A DNA stretch of 64,000 nt. Source: Geobacter sp. (GTDB taxonomy: Bacteria > Desulfobacterota > Desulfuromonadia > Geobacterales > Geobacteraceae). Positions within the stretch are counted from its first letter, which is position 1, and the number at the start of each line of letters is the position of its first letter. Below, in pieces: positions 19,847 through 30,651 of the stretch. Under the pieces are notes generated by a model. The model did not search any database, was not told the DNA's origin, and worked only from the letters and a program-made list of their open reading frames with translations. The stretch is taken from assembly GCA_003574885.1 (NCBI GenBank), contig PJFC01000010.1:1-64000 (forward strand). The letters are read 5' to 3'. The position numbers and the translations under genes were made by a program.

Positions 19847-21016
19847 TTACCTTCGCACTCCAGGCGGAGAAGCGACTGAAGTTTCCGCCTTTTCGGTTTC
19901 AGCAGACAGGAGCTCCACCGTCACCTTGCCGAGGGGGATACTGGTCTCCACCTTAACCGGAGTTCTAGATTCATCTTCAGTCAGCCAGATCGTCACATCT
20001 CCGGTCCGCTTGAATATGCCGTCGGTCGTGAACTGCGGCTTAACCACTATGGTATCGGCTTTCCTGAGTCCCGGCAGGTTTACCCGCTCCCGGCGCAGCA
20101 CCTGCACGGGGATTTCGGTGTACTGATCGCTGTCATAGACTTGGAGCAGTTCCGACGTACCGACCTTGAGCTGCTTTCCTCTCAGGTAGTAAAAACCGGA
20201 GAGGAGGTCGAGGACGTCGCTGGTAGGGACGGTTTCGTTACTGCTTTTGTGGGTGAGGAGATTATGCCAGAATACTTTCCTGTCCCGCAGAAAAAGGGTA
20301 AATCCGCGATTGCTGCGTAACGAGCCTTCCTGTTGCCGTATCTTGGTGATAATGAAATTGCCGCCGATATGCCGTGTTTCGATGACGTCATCCACGGGAT
20401 AAAGAGTGGACAGGGCTGCATTCGACATAACCTTCAGCGTAATTCTCACCTCTCCGCGCTCGTTTTTCGCCTCAAGTTCGGCATCTCCCACCGCAAGACC
20501 AAACATGTTAATCTGGTAGGTAAGCTTTTCATGTTCCGTTGCCAGGAACTCACCAGCACTCCTTAGCGGTGGCTGGATGGCATATGTAGGTACATTTTTC
20601 CGCGGTGCCATCGCCGTCGACTCGTTACGCGCCAAACTGACCGGCGCAGGTGCATCAGCGCTTCCCGTGCTCAGTTCAGGGTCGTCTCTTCCCGCTTCCG
20701 TTTGAACCTGGCGTTTACCCACCCGGGCAGAGGTGCTGTCAGTTACAGCCCCTGACGTGTCCTGAAGTTCACTGTTTTTCGCAACTTCCTCCACATTGGC
20801 AGTGTCACTCCTTTCTTGTCCCACATCTTCTATTGCAGGATTGAAACCTTCCCCCGGCGTCTTCAAGTCGACCATGACAGCCTGGGGCAGATTGACCGGT
20901 CTGGCAAAATTGTAGCTGCCGAGTTTTCCCAAAGGGAAGAAGAGGAACAAGTGGACCATGACAGACAGGCAAACACAGATTGCGGATATGCGGCTATTGT
21001 CGCTATACAGGTTCAT
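19847..21016 (-). CDS. DUF3108 protein with N-terminal membrane anchor
   Basis: A 389-residue protein with one N-terminal membrane helix (about 10-32), a low-complexity Ser/Glu/Pro linker (about 45-150) and a C-terminal DUF3108 beta-barrel-like domain (about 165-380). The anchor-linker-domain layout resembles TonB-type periplasmic proteins, but no TonB domain is seen. Function is unknown. The ATG at 21016 has a poor ribosome site; a TTG at 21037 is possible. A nine-codon frame (ATG at 21041, ribosome site AAAGGGA) ends in TGA overlapping the chosen ATG and might couple translation. Confidence 0.7.
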   Translation of the reverse strand: MNLYSDNSRISAICVCLSVMVHLFLFFPLGKLGSYNFARPVNLPQAVMVDLKTPGEGFNPAIEDVGQERSDTANVEEVAKNSELQDTSGAVTDSTSARVGKRQVQTEAGRDDPELSTGSADAPAPVSLARNESTAMAPRKNVPTYAIQPPLRSAGEFLATEHEKLTYQINMFGLAVGDAELEAKNERGEVRITLKVMSNAALSTLYPVDDVIETRHIGGNFIITKIRQQEGSLRSNRGFTLFLRDRKVFWHNLLTHKSSNETVPTSDVLDLLSGFYYLRGKQLKVGTSELLQVYDSDQYTEIPVQVLRRERVNLPGLRKADTIVVKPQFTTDGIFKRTGDVTIWLTEDESRTPVKVETSIPLGKVTVELLSAETEKAETSVASPPGVRR

Positions 21017-21095
21017 GATTTTCTGATTTCGGTACAATCCATCTCAAAATTCCCTTTGTAGTAAGATTTTATCAAGCAACCGCTAAGCTTACCAC

Positions 21096-21123
21096 AAAAA
21101 ACCCCGCCTCTTGCGAGGCGGGG
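21096..21123 (-). terminator. Rho-independent terminator after the nonaheme cytochrome
   Basis: Nine-bp GC-rich stem CCCCGCCTC (21102-21110) / GAGGCGGGG (21115-21123) with a 4-base loop; on the minus strand it is followed by TTTTTT. It closes the porin-cytochrome operon; the next minus gene begins beyond it. Confidence 0.92.
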
Positions 21124-21151
21124 CCGAATGTTGCATCATGCTGCTGCTGGT

Positions 21152-22900
21152 TTACGGACGCTCGATAGTGCTCCAAGCGCCAGTGTAGGTCCAATTAATA
21201 AGGTAGGCCATTGCAGCAGTGGTGCCCGTGGTAAGTGTGCCACCTGCATACGGGGCTCCACCGGTGTAGGCGGTAGTTGCCTTGGTGAAGATCAGGTTGC
21301 CTGCACTGTCTTTCAGGCCTGAATTCAAAGCCGTTTGCCCAACGGACATATCGATTACCCTGTTGTCCATGAAGTCAATGGAGTCATAGAGCAGACGACG
21401 GGCATAGGTCCGGGCGTGGGCAAAAGCAGCCGGATCACGCTTGAGAACGTTGATGTTGAAGCAGGCGCCCATCAGCTTCTTGGCTTCGGCACCAGTCAAT
21501 GCCCCACCGCGGGTCCAGTCTTTGACTGCGCCAACAGTGCTTAGGCTGTCATCATAGAAATAGGGATACAGAGCCTGGTTGTAGCTGATGTTGTACTTGC
21601 TCTTCAGAGTGGCAAGAGCCAGATTCAGCGCATCCTGGAATACTGCCGACTGTTCTTCGATGAAGACAGTTTTGAAGTTGTCGGCTGTCAATACTGTAGT
21701 GCCTTCGGCTTTGTGACACTTGACACACACTTCATTAAATGAATCTGTGCTAATTTCCCAGGTATGACTAGCTTTTGGCATATGACAGGTAACGCAGGGA
21801 CCGTCTGAAATCACAGCGGTATCAGCAGCAGTAATCCCATGGTCACCGATCAAGGCAGCAGTTCCCAGCTTGCGGTGGGTACTACCGAGCGCTCCACCAT
21901 CGTCAGTTGCTTTCAGTGATGCACCATAGGTGCTGGTACCGAACGCGGTAGCAGGATCAATAAAGTCGGTAAAACCATTTTTAACATACATTAAACCTGC
22001 AGCAGCCATATAGTGCGAGTTTATAAAGCCCGTATTGTTCATCTTTGTTTCATCAAGCGCTTCAACTGTTGCGCCGCTGTCCAATCCGGCATGGCAGGGA
22101 ATACAGAGCTGCGAATTGCCGATTACATCTTTGCCGGGGAATGCCTTCGATGCGCCCAAAGATGGTGTGTAGGGGGCAACATAGGCTGAAGAGAGCTGAC
22201 GAACACTGTTCTTGTAATCGTTGCTGCTGTGGCAGCCGTCACAGCGGAGGGGCTGCTTGCCGAGGGAAGTGGTCGACAGGGCCTTTTTGTCGGTAAAGTT
22301 GTTGTTTACAACCTTCGCAAAACCTGCGGCAGTATGGCAGGAGTTGCAGGTATCCCTGATCGTGAAGTCATAGTGCGACCAAGCCTCACCGGTCACTTTG
22401 CCGTGACCTGATTCAGCCCATTCAGTGTGCCGTTGTGTTGTATTGTTCTTGTGCGGAGCGTGGCAGGGTTTGCAGGATTTATCAACGCCGATGTACATGG
22501 CTGACGTTCCTGTGCTTGTGAAGTGTGCTGCCGGCAGGTAGTTCTGGTGGCACTCAAAACACTTTCCTGCTGCATCCGGATTGGGGTAAGGAATCGGGCC
22601 GACGCCGTTGTGCTCGGCTCCGCCGCCGTGGCAGCCCTGACAACCGATACCATCCGGGTAATGACTTTTTGCATTCGGTACCAGATTATGCGGCGAAGCT
22701 AAATAATCCTGAACGATCAGGCTGGATGTTGCGGGATCAAGTGATGTTGAGTGACAGACCCTGCATGATGCTTCGTCAACTTTCGCCACATTCGCTGAGG
22801 TGGTCCCCCCCTCCTTGTTGCCGGTACCGCACCCGGTTAGCGCGGTCGCCAGCAGTGTCGCGAAAAGCATTGCTGAATACTTCAGGCTTGTTCTACTCAT
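21152..22900 (-). CDS. Nonaheme c-type cytochrome lipoprotein (OmcB-like)
   Basis: A 582-residue predicted outer-membrane lipoprotein: signal peptide with lipobox LTGC (Cys 24). I count nine CxxCH heme sites (CRVCH, CQGCH, CFECH, CKPCH, CNSCH, CDGCH, CIPCH, CVTCH, CVKCH), all in the first two thirds; the last 180 residues have none. The N-terminus and position after a barrel and an octaheme cytochrome recall OmcB of G. sulfurreducens, which has 12 hemes. Likely the surface-exposed electron outlet. Strong ribosome site AAGGAGGAAA. Confidence 0.9.
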   Translation of the reverse strand: MSRTSLKYSAMLFATLLATALTGCGTGNKEGGTTSANVAKVDEASCRVCHSTSLDPATSSLIVQDYLASPHNLVPNAKSHYPDGIGCQGCHGGGAEHNGVGPIPYPNPDAAGKCFECHQNYLPAAHFTSTGTSAMYIGVDKSCKPCHAPHKNNTTQRHTEWAESGHGKVTGEAWSHYDFTIRDTCNSCHTAAGFAKVVNNNFTDKKALSTTSLGKQPLRCDGCHSSNDYKNSVRQLSSAYVAPYTPSLGASKAFPGKDVIGNSQLCIPCHAGLDSGATVEALDETKMNNTGFINSHYMAAAGLMYVKNGFTDFIDPATAFGTSTYGASLKATDDGGALGSTHRKLGTAALIGDHGITAADTAVISDGPCVTCHMPKASHTWEISTDSFNEVCVKCHKAEGTTVLTADNFKTVFIEEQSAVFQDALNLALATLKSKYNISYNQALYPYFYDDSLSTVGAVKDWTRGGALTGAEAKKLMGACFNINVLKRDPAAFAHARTYARRLLYDSIDFMDNRVIDMSVGQTALNSGLKDSAGNLIFTKATTAYTGGAPYAGGTLTTGTTAAMAYLINWTYTGAWSTIERP

Positions 22901-22936
22901 GCTGTTTCCTCCTTGTGTTGGTAGGCTACTGAAATA

Positions 22937-23632
22937 TTAATACGTTCCCGGCAGATGACATTTTCTGCAAACCTGGTCTCCGGCCTTGTCCCGGAAATTC
23001 TCCTTGATCCTCCCCCAGTTGCGGGGATGGGGACTGGTCTTGCCGCTGGAGTGGCACTGGATGCAGACATCACCTTCAGGATGACAGGTCTGGCAGGACT
23101 GCAGATTGCGCCGTGCTTCCGTGGCATGCTCATGCAGCGCAGGTGCATATTTCTGGCCGTCCGGGCCGAGCATCAGGTGCGACTTGATCCGCAGCTTTCC
23201 TTTGGGGAAGCGATCGTGGCAGGAGGTGCAGTACTTCTGGTCGTGACAGCGGTAGCAGTTCTGCGGATTGTCCCCGGCCTTGATCGGGTGAATGGTGATG
23301 AAGTCGCTCCGGTGGCTCTTGGGTACATAGTCGCGACCGAAGGTGTCTGCCGACAGGTCGGCGTTGATCCCTCCACCCTTATGGCAATCGAGACAGAACG
23401 ACTGCTTGTGGCATTGGGCACAGTTGTTGGTTGATTGCTTGACAAGCGTCCGGTGACTTTGGAGCCAGTCACCGACGTGGTTGGGGGCAATCCCTTCTGC
23501 CTTGTGACAATCATTGCATTCGGCGATCTTCATCTCGGCATATTCTTTGTGCTGCTGTTTCTGGGCTACGGCCTGCTGCACATACAAGGCAGGCATTACC
23601 AGAAGCAAACAGGCGAAAAGCAGTTTCTTCAC
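22937..23632 (-). CDS. Octaheme periplasmic c-type cytochrome (OmaB-like)
   Basis: A 231-residue exported protein with a cleavable signal peptide (AVA|QK near residue 23) and eight CxxCH motifs: CNDCH, CAQCH, CLDCH, CYRCH, CTSCH, CQTCH, CIQCH and CRKCH. Size and heme number match the OmaB/OmaC type, which feeds electrons from the periplasm into a porin-cytochrome conduit. It lies between the barrel gene (15 bases) and the nonaheme lipoprotein gene (36 bases), consistent with one operon and one complex. Confidence 0.9.
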   Translation of the reverse strand: MKKLLFACLLLVMPALYVQQAVAQKQQHKEYAEMKIAECNDCHKAEGIAPNHVGDWLQSHRTLVKQSTNNCAQCHKQSFCLDCHKGGGINADLSADTFGRDYVPKSHRSDFITIHPIKAGDNPQNCYRCHDQKYCTSCHDRFPKGKLRIKSHLMLGPDGQKYAPALHEHATEARRNLQSCQTCHPEGDVCIQCHSSGKTSPHPRNWGRIKENFRDKAGDQVCRKCHLPGTY

Positions 23633-23647
23633 AGGTGCACCCCCTTT

Positions 23648-24859
23648 CTAAAAGTCATAATCGAACGTTACACGTCCTGATGTGTTATGGCTGTAGCGCG
23701 CGTTGACGTCGGTCTGGATGCGCCCGGAAACAGCCACATTGTTCGTGACTTTGTATTTGCCCCCCAGCCAGTATCTGCGGGCAATTTCATCATTGGTCAG
23801 AGAGTCCCGCTGGTAGACGTCGTAGGTGAAGCCTCCGGCCACGTTGACCTTCTTGGTGATCTCGTAGTCAGCATCGATGATGACACCGTTCGTGCTGCCA
23901 TAGTAGCCGGTACGGTTGTCATACTCCACATTCACCTTGAGCGGCTCGATGGGACGTACCCCCAGACCCACGTGGTAGACATTGGCTGCAGCCCCTTCGC
24001 CATAACCCTGACGATTGTAGCCGGCATTGACCGATATCATGTCGTTGAAGGTGTAATCGATTCGGAACAGCCCTTCCGCGTACTCGTTGACGGCAAACAC
24101 CGAGTAGATGGAGGTGGTGTCGAAGGTGGCATAGCTCTGGTAGTATTCACCGCTTAAGACCAGGTTTGACATGGGGTAGTATTTCACCCCGGCCTGTACC
24201 TCGTTGAACACCTCGGCCGTCAGGTCGTATTTGGCATTACCGTAGACCTTGAGGTTGTTCAGAAGGTACTGCTTGGCAGATAACCCCAGGATGTCGCGGG
24301 CCACATTGCCATGGTCCCACTTGCGGAACCAGCTCACCTCGGCATCGGTCTGCTTGAAGCCGGTCAGATAGGCGGACATGCCAAGATCGGTGTTCCAGCT
24401 GTAGCCGAGTTCGCCATCAAGCCCGAAAATCACATCGCGGCCGCCAAAAAGTGAAAACCCTACCGGGCCCACATTCTTGATATCGAGTTGGAGACCGTCG
24501 ATGATGGCACTCCCCGCAGCAACGTTGACGAACTGCCGGCCGACCCGGATGTCGGCTTTATCGAACAGGTCGCGGTACTCGCCATAGAGGTAGTAGAGTC
24601 GCCCTGCCCCCCCCTCACCGTTCGTAAAATCCTGGGAGAGTCGGCCATAACCGTAGATGTTGAACTTGCCCGCCTTGTCGATGTTGGTGATGGAAAGGCG
24701 CAGGTATTCGGCCGCTTCAAACTGGCGCTGCTCAATGAGTTCGTTGTTGAACCACAACAATTGGGTGGAGCTTCTGCCGTGGATTTCCGCCGACCATGCC
24801 GCGGTGGATACCAGCAGAGACCCCAGGAGACACATTCGTGTTACCCATTTAATCCCCAT
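23648..24859 (-). CDS. Outer-membrane beta-barrel of a porin-cytochrome conduit (OmbB-like)
   Basis: A 403-residue protein with a signal peptide ending near AWSA (residue 24), then alternating amphipathic strands rich in Tyr, Gly and Asn, and a C-terminal Phe (VTFDYDF), the usual mark of outer-membrane barrels. No CxxCH is present. First gene of the three-gene operon with two multiheme cytochromes, so it likely forms the pore that holds them. Ribosome site AAAGGAGGT precedes the ATG. Sequence-level membership of the OmbB family was not tested. Confidence 0.85.
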   Translation of the reverse strand: MGIKWVTRMCLLGSLLVSTAAWSAEIHGRSSTQLLWFNNELIEQRQFEAAEYLRLSITNIDKAGKFNIYGYGRLSQDFTNGEGGAGRLYYLYGEYRDLFDKADIRVGRQFVNVAAGSAIIDGLQLDIKNVGPVGFSLFGGRDVIFGLDGELGYSWNTDLGMSAYLTGFKQTDAEVSWFRKWDHGNVARDILGLSAKQYLLNNLKVYGNAKYDLTAEVFNEVQAGVKYYPMSNLVLSGEYYQSYATFDTTSIYSVFAVNEYAEGLFRIDYTFNDMISVNAGYNRQGYGEGAAANVYHVGLGVRPIEPLKVNVEYDNRTGYYGSTNGVIIDADYEITKKVNVAGGFTYDVYQRDSLTNDEIARRYWLGGKYKVTNNVAVSGRIQTDVNARYSHNTSGRVTFDYDF

Positions 24860-24947
24860 TCAATCGGACCTCCTTTCTGAATTGATCACATGTTGCCGCT
24901 TTCTTCTGACTGCTTCGTCGATGCATCCCCCCTTTTTCTCCACTTTA

Positions 24948-24963
24948 GTTAGTACTTACTAAC
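24948..24963. promoter_or_regulatory. TetR-type operator-like palindrome
   Basis: GTTAGTA-CT-TACTAAC is a 7+7 bp perfect inverted repeat with a 2-base centre, about 90 bases upstream of the barrel start. On the minus strand TTGTCA ends about 12 bases before it and TACTAA lies within it, so it could overlap a promoter. The symmetry and sequence style resemble TetR-family operators. Confidence 0.5.
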
Positions 24964-25434: not shown

Positions 25435-26901
25435 TCAATAACTCACAAATGCGTCTGTCGTGAAATGCATTGGCATGCCGGAAGCGGAGAAATCGAAATG
25501 TTTCCCGTGGTCTTTCATCATCAGCTTGAACGCGCTCATCATGTAGCGACGTTTGAAACCGTCCTCCAGCGCGACAATCTCCTGCACCTTCTCGGTGTAA
25601 AACTTCATGTAGCAGGTACCGAGTGCCTGGGTAATTTCGTCCATGGTCATCTCGAACGGCTCGATAATGGGAGTCACCAGATTGTATTTCGAGTAGTCCC
25701 ATACCCTGATACGATCCTTCATGTCCGCATGAATCGGGGTAAAAGGCATGGGGGTGACGACGGGGAACACAGCGATATCCGGATTGAGATACTTGGCGGA
25801 TTCGATGGTGTTGTCGATTGAATCCCATGTTTCATTCGGAAAGCCGATCATGAATGACGCTTCCGTGATGATGCCCGCCTCGCGGCACAGATCCAGTGCC
25901 TGCTTGTTCTGCTCGAAACTGGTGCCTTTGTTCAGGCTGTTCAAGGTATCCTTGTCGGCACTCTCCGCACCGATGTAAATATGGATTATCCCGGCCTCCG
26001 CGTATTTGTGCAGGATATCCGCATCCCTGATGATATCTTCCACCCTGGTTTCGATGAGCAACTGGACCCCGAACTTCCGCTCGATCAACAGGTCCAGGAA
26101 CAGTTCCCAGCGGTCCCGGTGTTTGGTCGGATAAGCGTCGATCAGCGTGAAGAAGCTGATATTGTAGGTTTCGATCAGGTGGGCCATTTCTTCGATGACA
26201 TTTTCCGGTTTCCGACAGCGCCAGTCCTCGCGCCAGAACATCCTCTGGCTGCAGAATGCGCACTCCATGTCGCAGCCACGGGAACTCAGAATGGAGGCCA
26301 TTCTGCCGCCGGGTGCGACGCGGTACTGGTAATCGTCCCAGTCCAGCAGGTGCCACGCTGCAGATAAGGAGTCAAGTTCGACAATGTGGGGCTGATTGGC
26401 GTTCGAAACAACCTCCCCACCCTCCAGGAATGCAATACCCTTCACGTCTTTTCCCTTACCTTCCGGAATCGCCGCGAGCAGTTGTTTCAAGGTCTGCTCA
26501 GGTTCTCCCTTCAGGATGTAATCGACATGGTTTTTGTTGTCTTCGAGGATTTCGTTAAACATGAAGGTGGGATGGGGGCCACCCAGCAGGGTGACAATCG
26601 CCGGATTTACCTCTTTGGCAACATCCAGAATCCTGAGGGCATCGGGAACCGTGGCAGTGCTGATGGCGCCGGTGACCGGAAGGTAATCCAGGGTCATGAC
26701 GAAATCGGGCTGGAATCGTTCGATCTCCTGCCTGATATCATCGAAAGCGAGCCCTTTGTTCATAGCATCAAATATTCTGGCTTCGTGTCCCGCTTCAAGC
26801 GCGGCTCCGGCGAGATAGGCCAGATGCAGTGGGGGCCATTTGCCGACAACCTGCACTCCCCAACAGTGATACGGGGCTGTTACAAAAAGAATCTTGCTCA
26901 T
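25435..26901 (-). CDS. BchE-like B12-binding radical SAM protein, copy 1
   Basis: A 488-residue protein with an N-terminal B12-binding Rossmann region (1-145; KILFVTAPYH, LLGGPHPTF) and a radical SAM core with C210, C214 and C217 in CDMECAFC. It is clearly related to the protein encoded at 29215-30651 and both recall BchE, the anaerobic Mg-protoporphyrin ester cyclase, but nothing else of a chlorophyll pathway is present. Substrate unknown. The ATG at 26901 follows GGGGAGG. The gene is separated from the histidine kinase gene by 156 bases that contain a PhoB-type repeat, so it may be a direct target of that regulator. Confidence 0.87.
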   Translation of the reverse strand: MSKILFVTAPYHCWGVQVVGKWPPLHLAYLAGAALEAGHEARIFDAMNKGLAFDDIRQEIERFQPDFVMTLDYLPVTGAISTATVPDALRILDVAKEVNPAIVTLLGGPHPTFMFNEILEDNKNHVDYILKGEPEQTLKQLLAAIPEGKGKDVKGIAFLEGGEVVSNANQPHIVELDSLSAAWHLLDWDDYQYRVAPGGRMASILSSRGCDMECAFCSQRMFWREDWRCRKPENVIEEMAHLIETYNISFFTLIDAYPTKHRDRWELFLDLLIERKFGVQLLIETRVEDIIRDADILHKYAEAGIIHIYIGAESADKDTLNSLNKGTSFEQNKQALDLCREAGIITEASFMIGFPNETWDSIDNTIESAKYLNPDIAVFPVVTPMPFTPIHADMKDRIRVWDYSKYNLVTPIIEPFEMTMDEITQALGTCYMKFYTEKVQEIVALEDGFKRRYMMSAFKLMMKDHGKHFDFSASGMPMHFTTDAFVSY

Positions 26902-26995
26902 CCGGTTCCTCCCCTGCGTAAATGGTTTCAATTGCAAAGTTGAAGAGTGCAAAGCGCACCTGATGAACTTTACCAATGAAACGATCAATGGTCAT

Positions 26996-27013
26996 GTAAA
27001 GATTTGGTAAAGA
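26996..27013 (-). promoter_or_regulatory. PhoB/OmpR-type response-regulator box
   Basis: On the minus strand TCTTTAC-CAAA-TCTTTAC: a perfect 7-bp direct repeat with a 4-bp spacer (11-bp period), the classic binding layout of OmpR/PhoB-family regulators. A third, inverted half-site (ATTGGTAAAG) lies at 26968-26977. It sits about 95 bases before the radical SAM start, right behind a gene pair encoding such a regulator and its kinase. Confidence 0.6.
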
Positions 27014-27057
27014 ATCAGATGAGTAGTGAGCAGATGAGGGATGAAAGGTAGAGCGCT

Positions 27058-28158
27058 CTACAAGGCTGGGTTATCATTTCGTTTTTTTACCGTACAAGGG
27101 AGGTTGAACCAGACACGGGTCCCCTCCCCGCCGCTTTCCGCACCTACCGTACCTCCATGCGCCTCGATAAGTTCCTTGACGATTGCCAGTCCGATACCCG
27201 CGCCCCCGGCTTCCCGTGAGCGGGAGCGGTCCGCCCGGAAAAATCGTTCGAACAGATAGGGAATATCATCTGCCGCAATGACCGCACCGCTGTTGGCGAA
27301 GACGGTCTTTATGCCGTCCGCGGTACGCTGCGTTGCAAGCGTTACGATCCCCCGGCGCGGCGTGTATTTCCAGGCATTGTCGGCCAGGTTGCGTATTGCC
27401 TGCAGCAGCTTGTCCCGGTCTGCCGTTACCAGATCGCTCCCCGGGTCGAGCTGCCACTGCACTTCAATCTCCTTCTCCTGGAAATTAGGCCGATACATGG
27501 CCATGATCTGGCCGAGCAGTTCGTGGAGGGAGATTTCATGGCAATCGAGAAACGCCTTGGCAGCATCGGCTCTCGCCAGCTGCTGGAGATCGTCAACCAG
27601 ATGGACGAGGCGCAGAACCTCCTGCTCAAGCATCTGAAAAGTCTCGCTGGTCGGCGGAATGACGGCATCGCTCAATCCCTCCAGGTAGCCGCGCAGGTTG
27701 GTCAGAGGGGTGCGCAGTTCGTGGGATATGTCGGCTACCATGTTCTTGCGGAGCCGTTCAACCGTCTCCAGGTTATCGGCCATGTGGTTAAAGGCATCGG
27801 CAAGCTGCCCACCTTCATAGCGGGATACCACGTTGACCCGTTCGGAATAATTACCGTCGGCAACTTTTTTGGTGATGGCGGTGATCTGTAACAGGGGGCG
27901 CAAGACCCAGGTAGTCAGGAGGTAGGTAAAAAGCAGGGTAAAGGTCAGCGCAGCGAAAGCTCCCCAGAACATGTAGTGATGGATAGCTTCAAGAAACCTG
28001 CTATGCGCATCAACCGGCGAGACGTGAAAACGTTCTGACAGCTCCTGGTAATACACTGCCGCACGCCGGTCTACGGCTTGCCAGACCACCAGCGAAAAAA
28101 TCGCAAAGATCGGGACAAAGTGGCCAATCAATAACTTCCAGAGCAGCCTCTGTCGCAT
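27058..28158 (-). CDS. Sensor histidine kinase (BaeS/PhoR-like)
   Basis: A 366-residue inner-membrane kinase: helix 1 (about 10-28), a short 35-residue periplasmic segment, helix 2 (about 63-85), HAMP (85-138), HisKA with the phospho-accepting H146 in DISHELRTPL, and an HATPase domain with N-box NLADNAWKY and GGAGIGLAIV. The sensory loop is very small, so the signal may be sensed in the membrane or by a partner. The ATG follows the regulator's TAG directly (TAGATG), so the pair is translationally coupled. Confidence 0.93.
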   Translation of the reverse strand: MRQRLLWKLLIGHFVPIFAIFSLVVWQAVDRRAAVYYQELSERFHVSPVDAHSRFLEAIHHYMFWGAFAALTFTLLFTYLLTTWVLRPLLQITAITKKVADGNYSERVNVVSRYEGGQLADAFNHMADNLETVERLRKNMVADISHELRTPLTNLRGYLEGLSDAVIPPTSETFQMLEQEVLRLVHLVDDLQQLARADAAKAFLDCHEISLHELLGQIMAMYRPNFQEKEIEVQWQLDPGSDLVTADRDKLLQAIRNLADNAWKYTPRRGIVTLATQRTADGIKTVFANSGAVIAADDIPYLFERFFRADRSRSREAGGAGIGLAIVKELIEAHGGTVGAESGGEGTRVWFNLPCTVKKRNDNPAL

Positions 28159-28875
28159 CTACCCCTCCGGGTTTCCGTCGCTGAAGCAATAACCATGGCC
28201 GCGCACCGTTAGAATAAAACAGGGCCGGGAAGGATCATCCTCAATCTTCTGGCGGAGTTTGCCGATGTGCACATCGATGACCCGGTCGATAACCGCCTCG
28301 CTGTTCTGATAACACTGCCTCAGAAGTTCCTCCCGGGAAAGGACCTTCCCGGGAGAGATCATCAGAGCATACAGAAGTTTGTACTCCCACGTTGTCAGGG
28401 AAACAGGTTTCCCGTCGCGGGTTACCCTGTGTTTCTCGGTATCCAGTTCCAGCCCGGCAGCCGAGAGGATTGCTGCAGCAGCGGACGAGACCGGCCTGCT
28501 GCGTCGCAGGATAGCCTTGACCCGTTCCACCAGTTCGCGGGGGCTGAACGGCTTCACCACGTAATCATCGGCGCCCATAGCCAGGCCGGCAACCCGGTCA
28601 ACCTCTTCTTCCCGCGCCGTAAGCATCAGGACAGGGACATCGGAACTTTTCCGCAGATCCCGGCATATCTCCCAACCGTCAACGTTCGGCAGCATGACGT
28701 CGAGGATGACGAAAACGGGATTGCAATCGTCTGCGGCCCGGAGCGCCTCCCCGCCGTCGTGGACAACCACCGTCGAGAACCCCTCCCGCTCGAGATATGT
28801 AGCAACCAGTGCGGCGGTATTGCGGTCGTCTTCTACGATCAACACCGTTCCCTGGTTGCCAGTGGGCTGAGACAT
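28159..28875 (-). CDS. OmpR-family response regulator
   Basis: A 238-residue two-domain regulator. The receiver (about 10-125) has acidic residues at 16-17, the phospho-acceptor D59 (FVILDVML) and the conserved lysine in VKPFSPREL. The C-terminal winged helix (about 140-232) ends with VRGHGYCF. Cognate kinase follows immediately. It lies 13 bases after a rhodanese gene in an operon headed by a BchE-like enzyme. The perfect direct repeat at 26996-27013 is a likely binding site. Confidence 0.95.
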   Translation of the reverse strand: MSQPTGNQGTVLIVEDDRNTAALVATYLEREGFSTVVVHDGGEALRAADDCNPVFVILDVMLPNVDGWEICRDLRKSSDVPVLMLTAREEEVDRVAGLAMGADDYVVKPFSPRELVERVKAILRRSRPVSSAAAAILSAAGLELDTEKHRVTRDGKPVSLTTWEYKLLYALMISPGKVLSREELLRQCYQNSEAVIDRVIDVHIGKLRQKIEDDPSRPCFILTVRGHGYCFSDGNPEG

Positions 28876-28888
28876 TCATTTCTCCGAA

Positions 28889-29218
28889 TTAATGAACAGT
28901 GGGAAAGCCAGAACGCCGCCAGGCAGCCATGTGGCCCGTAAGAAGGGTGACATTGCGGAAACCGAGTACACCGAGCAACGCCTTGCCCATCATGGCACGA
29001 GGACCAAGTTCGCACAGCACGACAAGTTCGGCATCTTTATCCTGCGGAAGCGACACAAGCCTCAGCAGTATTTTCCAGACCGGTGCGTTAATCGCACCGG
29101 GGATATGGCCAGCCTTGAATTCAAATCCCGTGCGGACATCGATCACTGCCGGTGGCTGCCCGGAGGCAATTTTTTCTGCAAGTAGCCGTGGGTCCATAGG
29201 TGAATTCCGCCCTGTCAT
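28889..29218 (-). CDS. Single-domain rhodanese-like protein
   Basis: A 109-residue cytoplasmic sulfurtransferase-type domain. The region VIDVRTGFEFKAGHIPGAIN is the standard N-terminal part, and the active-site loop has a cysteine in CELGPRA, so it could carry a persulfide. No signal peptide. The ATG overlaps the TGA of the upstream BchE-like gene (ATGA, 29215-29218), which supports this start over the internal ATG at residue 8 and suggests the two products are made in step. A sulfur-donor or sensing role beside the radical SAM enzyme is inference. Confidence 0.9.
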   Translation of the reverse strand: MTGRNSPMDPRLLAEKIASGQPPAVIDVRTGFEFKAGHIPGAINAPVWKILLRLVSLPQDKDAELVVLCELGPRAMMGKALLGVLGFRNVTLLTGHMAAWRRSGFPTVH

Positions 29219-30651
29219 CCCTTGGATTTCATTTTCAATGCATCAATGGTTGCCGGGATCTTGCCAAGCATGCCGATTCCCAGCTTCTTCATGACAAAGC
29301 GGCTGCCCATAAACAGCTTGGTAATGCGCATCAGATAGTCACGCTTGAAGCCGGCCTTCATGGTCATGTAGTCCACTATCTTGCCCATGTAAAAATTGCG
29401 GTAGCCGTCCGCTATCGCAACCTCAATCTGCAGAATGCTCATGTTGTGTGGCTCAATGACAGGATCAACCATGTTGTATTTTGCATAATCGTGGACCCGA
29501 ATAAGGGGGATCAGCTTTTTATACCCCTCTGCATACGGCCAGGGGGTGAACGTGAAAAAGTTTGCGATGTCCGGGTTGTACTGCTGGGCCAGGTGCATGG
29601 TTTTCTTTATGCTCTCAGTAGTCTCGTCGGGAAAGCCTACCATAAACGACGCTTCGGACACGATCTCCTGCTCGCGGAGAAGATCAAAGATCTGCTTGAC
29701 TTCTCCTAAATCCATCCCTTTTTTCATTGCATCGAGGGCGGCCTGGTCGGCTGTCTCAATCCCGGTCGATATGTAGATGACGCCGGCCTTGCGGTACTTC
29801 CAGAGGATGTCCCTGTCCCGGATGATGTCCGGGCACCTGGTCTCCATCAAAAGATAAACCGGGATATCCCTGGCAATGACCGCATCGAGCAGGGCTTCCC
29901 AGCGCTCCCGGCTCCTGGTGGGATGTTCATCGGTAATCATGAAGACGTTGACGCGGTACGTTGTGTACAGATATTCCAGCTCGTCGGCCACATTCCGAGG
30001 GTCCCGGGCGCGCCAGGATTTCTCCCAGAAGCTCTGCTGGGAGCAGAATGTGCAGTCATGCTCACAGCCGCGGGAGGTGCTGATCGCACCTAGGCGTGAA
30101 TCGGGGATCACCAGACTGTAATAGTCCCGCCAGTCGAGAAGGTCCCACGCAGCCGGAAGATCGTCAATGGTCTCAACATACGTGCGCCTGTCGGTCCTGA
30201 CGACCGCACCCTCGCGCAGGAAGGCAATTCCGGCAACCGTGGCCGGGTCGTCACCAGCCTCAAGCACCTCCAGCAAATGCCGGAGTGTGGCTTCCCCTTC
30301 GCCGATGACGATGTAATCTACGGCAGCAGAGCTTGCAAGCACCTCCTCATACATGAAGGAGGGATGCACGCCCCCCAGGATGGTTACGGTAGCCGGGTTG
30401 ACTTTTTTGGCCAGTTCAAGGATCTTGACGGCGTCATTGATGGTAGCGGTGATCGCGGTTGATGCAACGCAAGCCGCCATGGATTCGCGCAAACGCTGCT
30501 CGATCGCGGGGTATGCATGACCCTTGGCCATGGCATCGTAGATCTCTGCATCCAGGCCTGCCAGACGGGCGGCACCGGCAAGGTAGACCAAACCGAGGGG
30601 AACCCAGCGACCGGCAATTTCATCCACGCCACTATGGTAGGGGGGGGTCAC
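29215..30651 (-). CDS. BchE-like B12-binding radical SAM protein, copy 2
   Basis: At least 478 residues: B12-binding region, then radical SAM core with C196, C200 and C203 in CEHDCTFC. Shares long matched segments with copy 1 (for example SEASFMVGFPDET here, TEASFMIGFPNET there). The GTG at 30651 is the first standard start, but it cuts off the first strand (SKILF) of the domain. In-frame codons back to an ATT at 30687, six bases after AGGGAG, restore that strand; the frame is stopped by TGA just before. A rare ATT start is therefore possible. Head of the rhodanese and two-component operon. Confidence 0.85.
   Translation of the reverse strand: MTPPYHSGVDEIAGRWVPLGLVYLAGAARLAGLDAEIYDAMAKGHAYPAIEQRLRESMAACVASTAITATINDAVKILELAKKVNPATVTILGGVHPSFMYEEVLASSAAVDYIVIGEGEATLRHLLEVLEAGDDPATVAGIAFLREGAVVRTDRRTYVETIDDLPAAWDLLDWRDYYSLVIPDSRLGAISTSRGCEHDCTFCSQQSFWEKSWRARDPRNVADELEYLYTTYRVNVFMITDEHPTRSRERWEALLDAVIARDIPVYLLMETRCPDIIRDRDILWKYRKAGVIYISTGIETADQAALDAMKKGMDLGEVKQIFDLLREQEIVSEASFMVGFPDETTESIKKTMHLAQQYNPDIANFFTFTPWPYAEGYKKLIPLIRVHDYAKYNMVDPVIEPHNMSILQIEVAIADGYRNFYMGKIVDYMTMKAGFKRDYLMRITKLFMGSRFVMKKLGIGMLGKIPATIDALKMKSKG

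Follow-up and report, generated by a model that had tools for sequence, protein, structure and literature searches.

Three adjacent genes of a Geobacter sp. raise the question of whether they encode an electron conduit like OmbB-OmaB-OmcB of G. sulfurreducens, and whether nine hemes instead of twelve in the last protein, followed by a long C-terminal tail, mark it as a shortened wire with a different terminal acceptor, as an initial annotation of this DNA had proposed. The stretch analyzed, hereafter the window, comprises 64,000 nucleotides and belongs to a draft genome of 23 contigs and 3.47 Mb. All three genes were found where the annotation had placed them, at 21152-24859 on the minus strand, in the order barrel, periplasmic cytochrome, outer cytochrome, and they are followed by a predicted terminator and a gene that forms a separate unit:

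23648-24859, minus strand: Omb-like outer-membrane barrel, 403 aa, 22 strands predicted with AlphaFold2
22937-23632, minus strand: Oma-like periplasmic octaheme cytochrome, 231 aa, GTG start, 8 CxxCH, without a lipobox
21152-22900, minus strand: nonaheme outer-membrane lipoprotein (the outlet), 582 aa, lipobox LTGC with Cys24, 9 CxxCH
22829-22900, minus strand: lipoprotein signal peptide of the outlet, ending in the lipobox LTGC, the same as that of a second outlet described below
21100-21125, minus strand: predicted intrinsic terminator of the three-gene unit, an 11-pair stem plus a T run, consensus match only
19847-21037, minus strand: gene for a DUF3108 protein, adjoining the conduit beyond the predicted terminator

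Upstream of the conduit, at 25435-30651, a two-component regulator pair lies between the genes of two B12-binding radical SAM proteins, both of which belong to the BchE-like group but scored below the BchE cut-off.

We looked in the first gene product for a porin-like barrel of about 18-22 strands, and its AlphaFold2 model (mean pLDDT 83.6) is a 22-strand beta barrel whose top structural matches are outer-membrane barrels. These top VIA-align matches are TonB-dependent receptors (Z near 20), which are themselves 22-strand barrels, while PDB searches with the barrel sequence, single and profile, gave no match. Conservation in the barrel family peaks at residues 242-256, which overlap a low-confidence loop in the model and may be a contact with the partner cytochromes. 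Among relatives, the window barrel is 93-94% identical to those of Geobacter sp. AOG1 and Geomobilimonas luticola and 77% identical to that of Geotalea sp. SG265, and matches to relatives in named Geobacteraceae span about 59-94%. The organism itself is a Geomobilimonas-like member of the Geobacteraceae. In some 30 genome records, the gene next to the barrel relative encodes an 8- or 9-heme cytochrome, and a lipoprotein cytochrome usually comes after it; in the loci compared, it does so in nearly all, mostly with 8 to 13 CxxCH. The OmbB-OmaB-OmcB-type order read from the window is borne out by these close relatives of its barrel in other Geobacteraceae.

Two further observations concern barrels elsewhere. 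In two Nitrospirota bins (L100 and L101), a related barrel (46% and 39%, respectively) is accompanied by a 9-heme partner and an outer cytochrome, pointing either to transfer of the conduit between phyla or to a binning error. Moreover, on contig C10 of the window genome (L009:6550-9892), a barrel-like protein of 447 aa, whose N-terminus has a single CSTCH, is encoded divergently from a multiheme lipoprotein about 50% identical to the window outlet. This divergent pair, also present in G. luticola (L125) and in a more distant version in AOG1 (L126), could be a two-gene conduit, and we take its barrel-like protein to recall Cyc2-type fused porins.

The second gene supplies the cluster with a periplasmic multiheme cytochrome without a lipobox. 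Across 16 relatives, its eight CxxCH are accompanied by exactly eight further invariant histidines, which would provide one possible distal ligand per heme.

By its sequence, the third gene product is a lipoprotein multiheme cytochrome (LTGC lipobox, nine CxxCH). The motifs stand at residues 46, 87, 114, 143, 185, 220, 266, 369 and 392, and their number, as counted in the initial annotation, is far from chance, as in 5000 composition shuffles of the outlet CxxCH occurred 0.026 times on average and never more than twice. Moreover, the Cys and His columns of all nine motifs are invariant in an alignment of 16 relatives. Nevertheless, nine hemes do not make this an unusual, shortened wire. Outlets of porin-cytochrome (Pcc) conduits are reported with 1 to 15 typical motifs (PMC4245776), Gmet0913 has nine hemes and an 8-heme partner (PMC11389400), and in about ten further loci an 8-heme protein is followed by a 9-heme protein, including those of Geotalea sp. 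SG265, Geobacter argillaceus, Geomonas propionica, Geomonas edaphica, Geomonas sp. Red32 and MAGs. In addition, the OmcB-like protein of the window's own genus (L071 ortholog) has nine CxxCH plus one longer-spaced motif, so that "nine rather than twelve" does not distinguish the window outlet. We rejected nine hemes as a novelty, this number being common in relatives and already published. Other multiheme frames occur in the genome: a 715-aa open frame with nine tandem cytochrome c7 domains (G000:C9:83754-85751), and giant frames of up to 2360 aa on contigs C14 and C12.

The "180-residue heme-free tail" of the annotation corresponds to the following features:

21155-21712, minus strand: C-terminal tail of the outlet without CxxCH, residues 397-582, 186 residues
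21416-21418, minus strand: codon of His495, a histidine in 16/16 sequences and the sole histidine of the tail

The tail is real as a stretch without CxxCH, and it belongs to this family of heme proteins. It is conserved across the 16 relatives up to a final RP/ERP and is present in larger 12-heme outlets as well, and is a conserved part of this outlet family as judged from the alignment. The only conserved outlet histidines outside the CxxCH motifs are H71 (15/16), H126, H150, H166, H296, H342, H379 and H495, i.e., eight candidate distal ligands, compared with nine expected if all hemes of a nonaheme protein were bis-His. Since His495 is one of these few, it is likely a distal ligand of one heme. 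A special or extra acceptor domain was also considered for the tail and dismissed, as the tail is family-wide, occurs in 12-heme outlets too and contains an invariant histidine; the conserved tail histidine warns against taking CxxCH-free regions for separate domains. The AlphaFold model of the outlet, computed with the hemes left out, is poor (pLDDT 54.5) and is best in the tail (mostly 65-92). A Foldseek search with this model gave no significant match, as expected from its quality, and a PDB profile search with the outlet matched only short heme-motif stretches of other multiheme proteins, e.g., MccA and NrfA.

We then turned to the surroundings of the three genes, where the DNA encoding the barrel and the octaheme proved to be present twice:

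22809-24936: repeat segment of 2128 bp, base-for-base equal to G000:C2:74683-76810, a direct repeat at an offset of 51874

The second barrel and octaheme copies (C2:74814-76733) have protein sequences identical to those of the window pair, and the identity of the DNA covers silent sites and the outlet signal peptide. The genome being a draft, a few hidden differences between the copies are possible. The second cluster, 52 kb away, has a TetR gene at its head and a 742-aa OmcB-like cytochrome at its end, the arrangement orfR-ombB-omaB-omcB. With the CxxCH masked, identity between the two outlets is 58% for residues 23-150, whereas their last 330 residues show 25% identity against a shuffled background of 28 +/- 5%. 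From these comparisons, the two outlets have a common signal peptide and N-terminal domain and, beyond it, no detectable relation. Taking full-length similarity and 12 hemes as the marks of an OmcB ortholog, we do not class the window outlet as one, because only its N-terminal part aligns with the OmcB-like protein of the same genome and it has nine CxxCH. The upstream edge of the repeat is abrupt, and the downstream edge fades within the homologous N-terminus of the outlet, a pattern that fits gene conversion or a recent duplication.

A different combination is found in G. argillaceus (L075), where the barrel is 75% identical and the C-terminal part of the outlet 56% identical, with the N-terminal part at background. 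The outlets are consequently mosaics in both directions, and a strictly shared N-terminal dock demanded by the barrel, which we also considered, is only partly supported. Outlet turnover is visible inside the genus as well: between the TetR-linked clusters of G. luticola and the window genome, the outlets share only 49% identity, compared with 93-94% for barrel and octaheme.

The TetR gene is missing from the window cluster and present in the second cluster only. Nevertheless, the window promoter carries a candidate site:

24949-24962: predicted operator of the TetR type, a palindrome that reads TTAGTAAGTACTAA on the coding strand, about 90 bp before the window barrel

In the second cluster, a counterpart, TGCAAGTAAGTACTTGCA, is found 190 bp upstream of the TetR gene; AOG1 has a near copy at the equivalent place, and TGTAAGTAAGTACTTACA precedes the TetR gene of another Geobacteraceae genome (L087). 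The 10-mer AGTAAGTACT occurs three times in 3.47 Mb, namely at the window promoter, upstream of the second cluster's TetR gene, and at the 5' end of a RelA/SpoT-like gene, the last of which seems unrelated; as the motif was spotted by eye before counting, this number is descriptive and does not amount to an independent test. Based on these sites, we predict that one TetR protein probably controls both clusters. A sigma-70 search of the window promoter gave no match.

As for the history of the locus, AOG1 and G. luticola have the flanking radical SAM gene (96% and 93% identical, respectively) and the DUF3108 gene adjacent, with little more than 100 bp between them and no conduit; the ubiE-like gene comes next, as in the window. 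In Geotalea, a DUF3108 homolog directly follows a barrel-octaheme-nonaheme cluster. The simplest history is that of an old barrel-octaheme-nonaheme-DUF3108 cluster, which was lost in the two sister species and homogenized here with the TetR-linked cluster. Alternatively, the cluster may have been gained in the window lineage.

Altogether, the locus is very probably a Pcc conduit of the OmbB-OmaB-OmcB type, and the genome has one barrel-octaheme core twice, each time with a different outlet. This explanation reads from the sequence the order of the genes, the heme motifs, the lipobox, the predicted barrel fold, the exact duplication, the shared operator-like site and the empty site in the sisters; complex assembly, the direction of electron flow, the acceptor and regulation are what we infer. 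In the proposed mechanism, the octaheme, presumably inside or under the 22-strand barrel, would accept electrons from periplasmic cytochromes and hand them to the lipid-anchored nonaheme outlet at the cell surface; the outlet in turn would reduce an extracellular acceptor. The likely function is that of one conserved wire with two alternative surface outlets, the 582-aa nonaheme and the 742-aa OmcB-like protein, with both clusters probably under one TetR regulator. A more specific version, put forward tentatively and in our judgment rather unlikely as a whole, would have one core serving two unrelated outlets through a shared N-terminal docking domain, under one TetR switch, with gene conversion maintaining the identity of the core copies so that either outlet continues to fit. 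A published cluster that pairs an 8-heme with a 9-heme protein is active in Fe(III) and anode reduction (PMC11389400), and the outer lipoprotein is often replaced on conserved periplasmic partners (PMC6148476; a precedent for outlet replacement is also given in PMC4245776). Since outlet swapping on a conserved conduit has already been published, the window locus is a further, sharper case of it and not a new kind. Nevertheless, the two clusters constitute a natural swap experiment, with identical barrel and octaheme and different outlets in one genetic background. They bear on which part of a Geobacter conduit, the surface cytochrome or the membrane core, selects the acceptor.

It is quite possible, at somewhat under even chances, that the window copy is a conduit dedicated to another acceptor or redox potential, that its nonaheme outlet has a substrate of its own and that the duplication serves specialization, which would be compatible with the conduit reading itself. 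The divergence of the two outlets past the N-terminal domain points this way, as do the differences in acceptor range among the Pcc clusters of G. metallireducens (PMC11389400) and the fact that the outlet is the part most often replaced (PMC6148476). However, the sequence names no acceptor, the tail is a family-wide domain and not a special one, and the G. metallireducens clusters overlap and compensate for each other. Rather doubtful is the possibility that the second copy is a recent product of gene conversion, or a dosage duplicate, with no distinct role. Identity over 2128 bp with silent sites included is what such an origin would leave, the gradual decay of the downstream edge in the homologous outlet N-terminus resembles the end of a conversion tract, and two sister species manage without the window cluster; but the intact outlet gene still has all nine motifs along with a terminator and an operator-like site, and Geotalea keeps related complete clusters with the same downstream gene.

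Improbable, too, is that the exact identity is partly an effect of assembly, with one consensus placed twice. A 2.1-kb repeat is hard for short reads and the draft has 23 contigs, but both copies lie in one contig, with unique flanks that differ on both sides and with different outlet genes, so that such an effect could mask a few differences and not the duplication itself. Finally, porin-cytochrome complexes can in principle run in either direction. An inward conduit, drawing electrons from a solid or a partner cell, is nevertheless very improbable, as the closest characterized relatives act in extracellular acceptor reduction (PMC4589669, PMC11389400).

The preferred reading, one core present twice with two outlets, has its nearest parallel in OmbB-OmaB-OmcB/OmbC-OmaC-OmcC of G. 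sulfurreducens, which by description resembles the window genome in gene order, 8-heme periplasmic partner, lipoprotein outlet and TetR gene in front. There, too, two clusters have an identical barrel and octaheme, the two Omb and Oma pairs being 100% identical and the outlets 71% identical (PMC4245776). However, these 71% identical outlets have 12 hemes, whereas those of the window genome show no detectable relation past the N-terminal domain, one with nine CxxCH and the other with nine and an additional longer-spaced motif; moreover, the G. sulfurreducens clusters are adjacent, and those of the window genome are 52 kb apart with a TetR gene at one only. In G. metallireducens, Gmet0911-0913 by description likewise comprises a barrel, an 8-heme periplasmic and a 9-heme outer cytochrome (PMC11389400), but it adjoins a second cluster in which the barrel and periplasmic genes are diverged and not identical. 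Closer in sequence are the Geotalea omb-oma-omc9-DUF3108 clusters (SG265, L074/L123; a second Geotalea-group genome, L124), which combine 8-heme and 9-heme proteins with the same downstream DUF3108 gene as in the window; for SG265, barrel, octaheme and outlet are 77%, 74% and 49% identical to those of the window. The Geotalea clusters are directly followed by a second, diverged barrel, whereas the barrel and octaheme of the window have identical copies in the TetR-linked cluster. Shewanella MtrCAB works alike, with a barrel, a periplasmic multiheme wire and a surface multiheme lipoprotein, but it has no sequence similarity (PMC6148476) and is built from a 28-strand barrel and ten-heme partners (PMC4245776).
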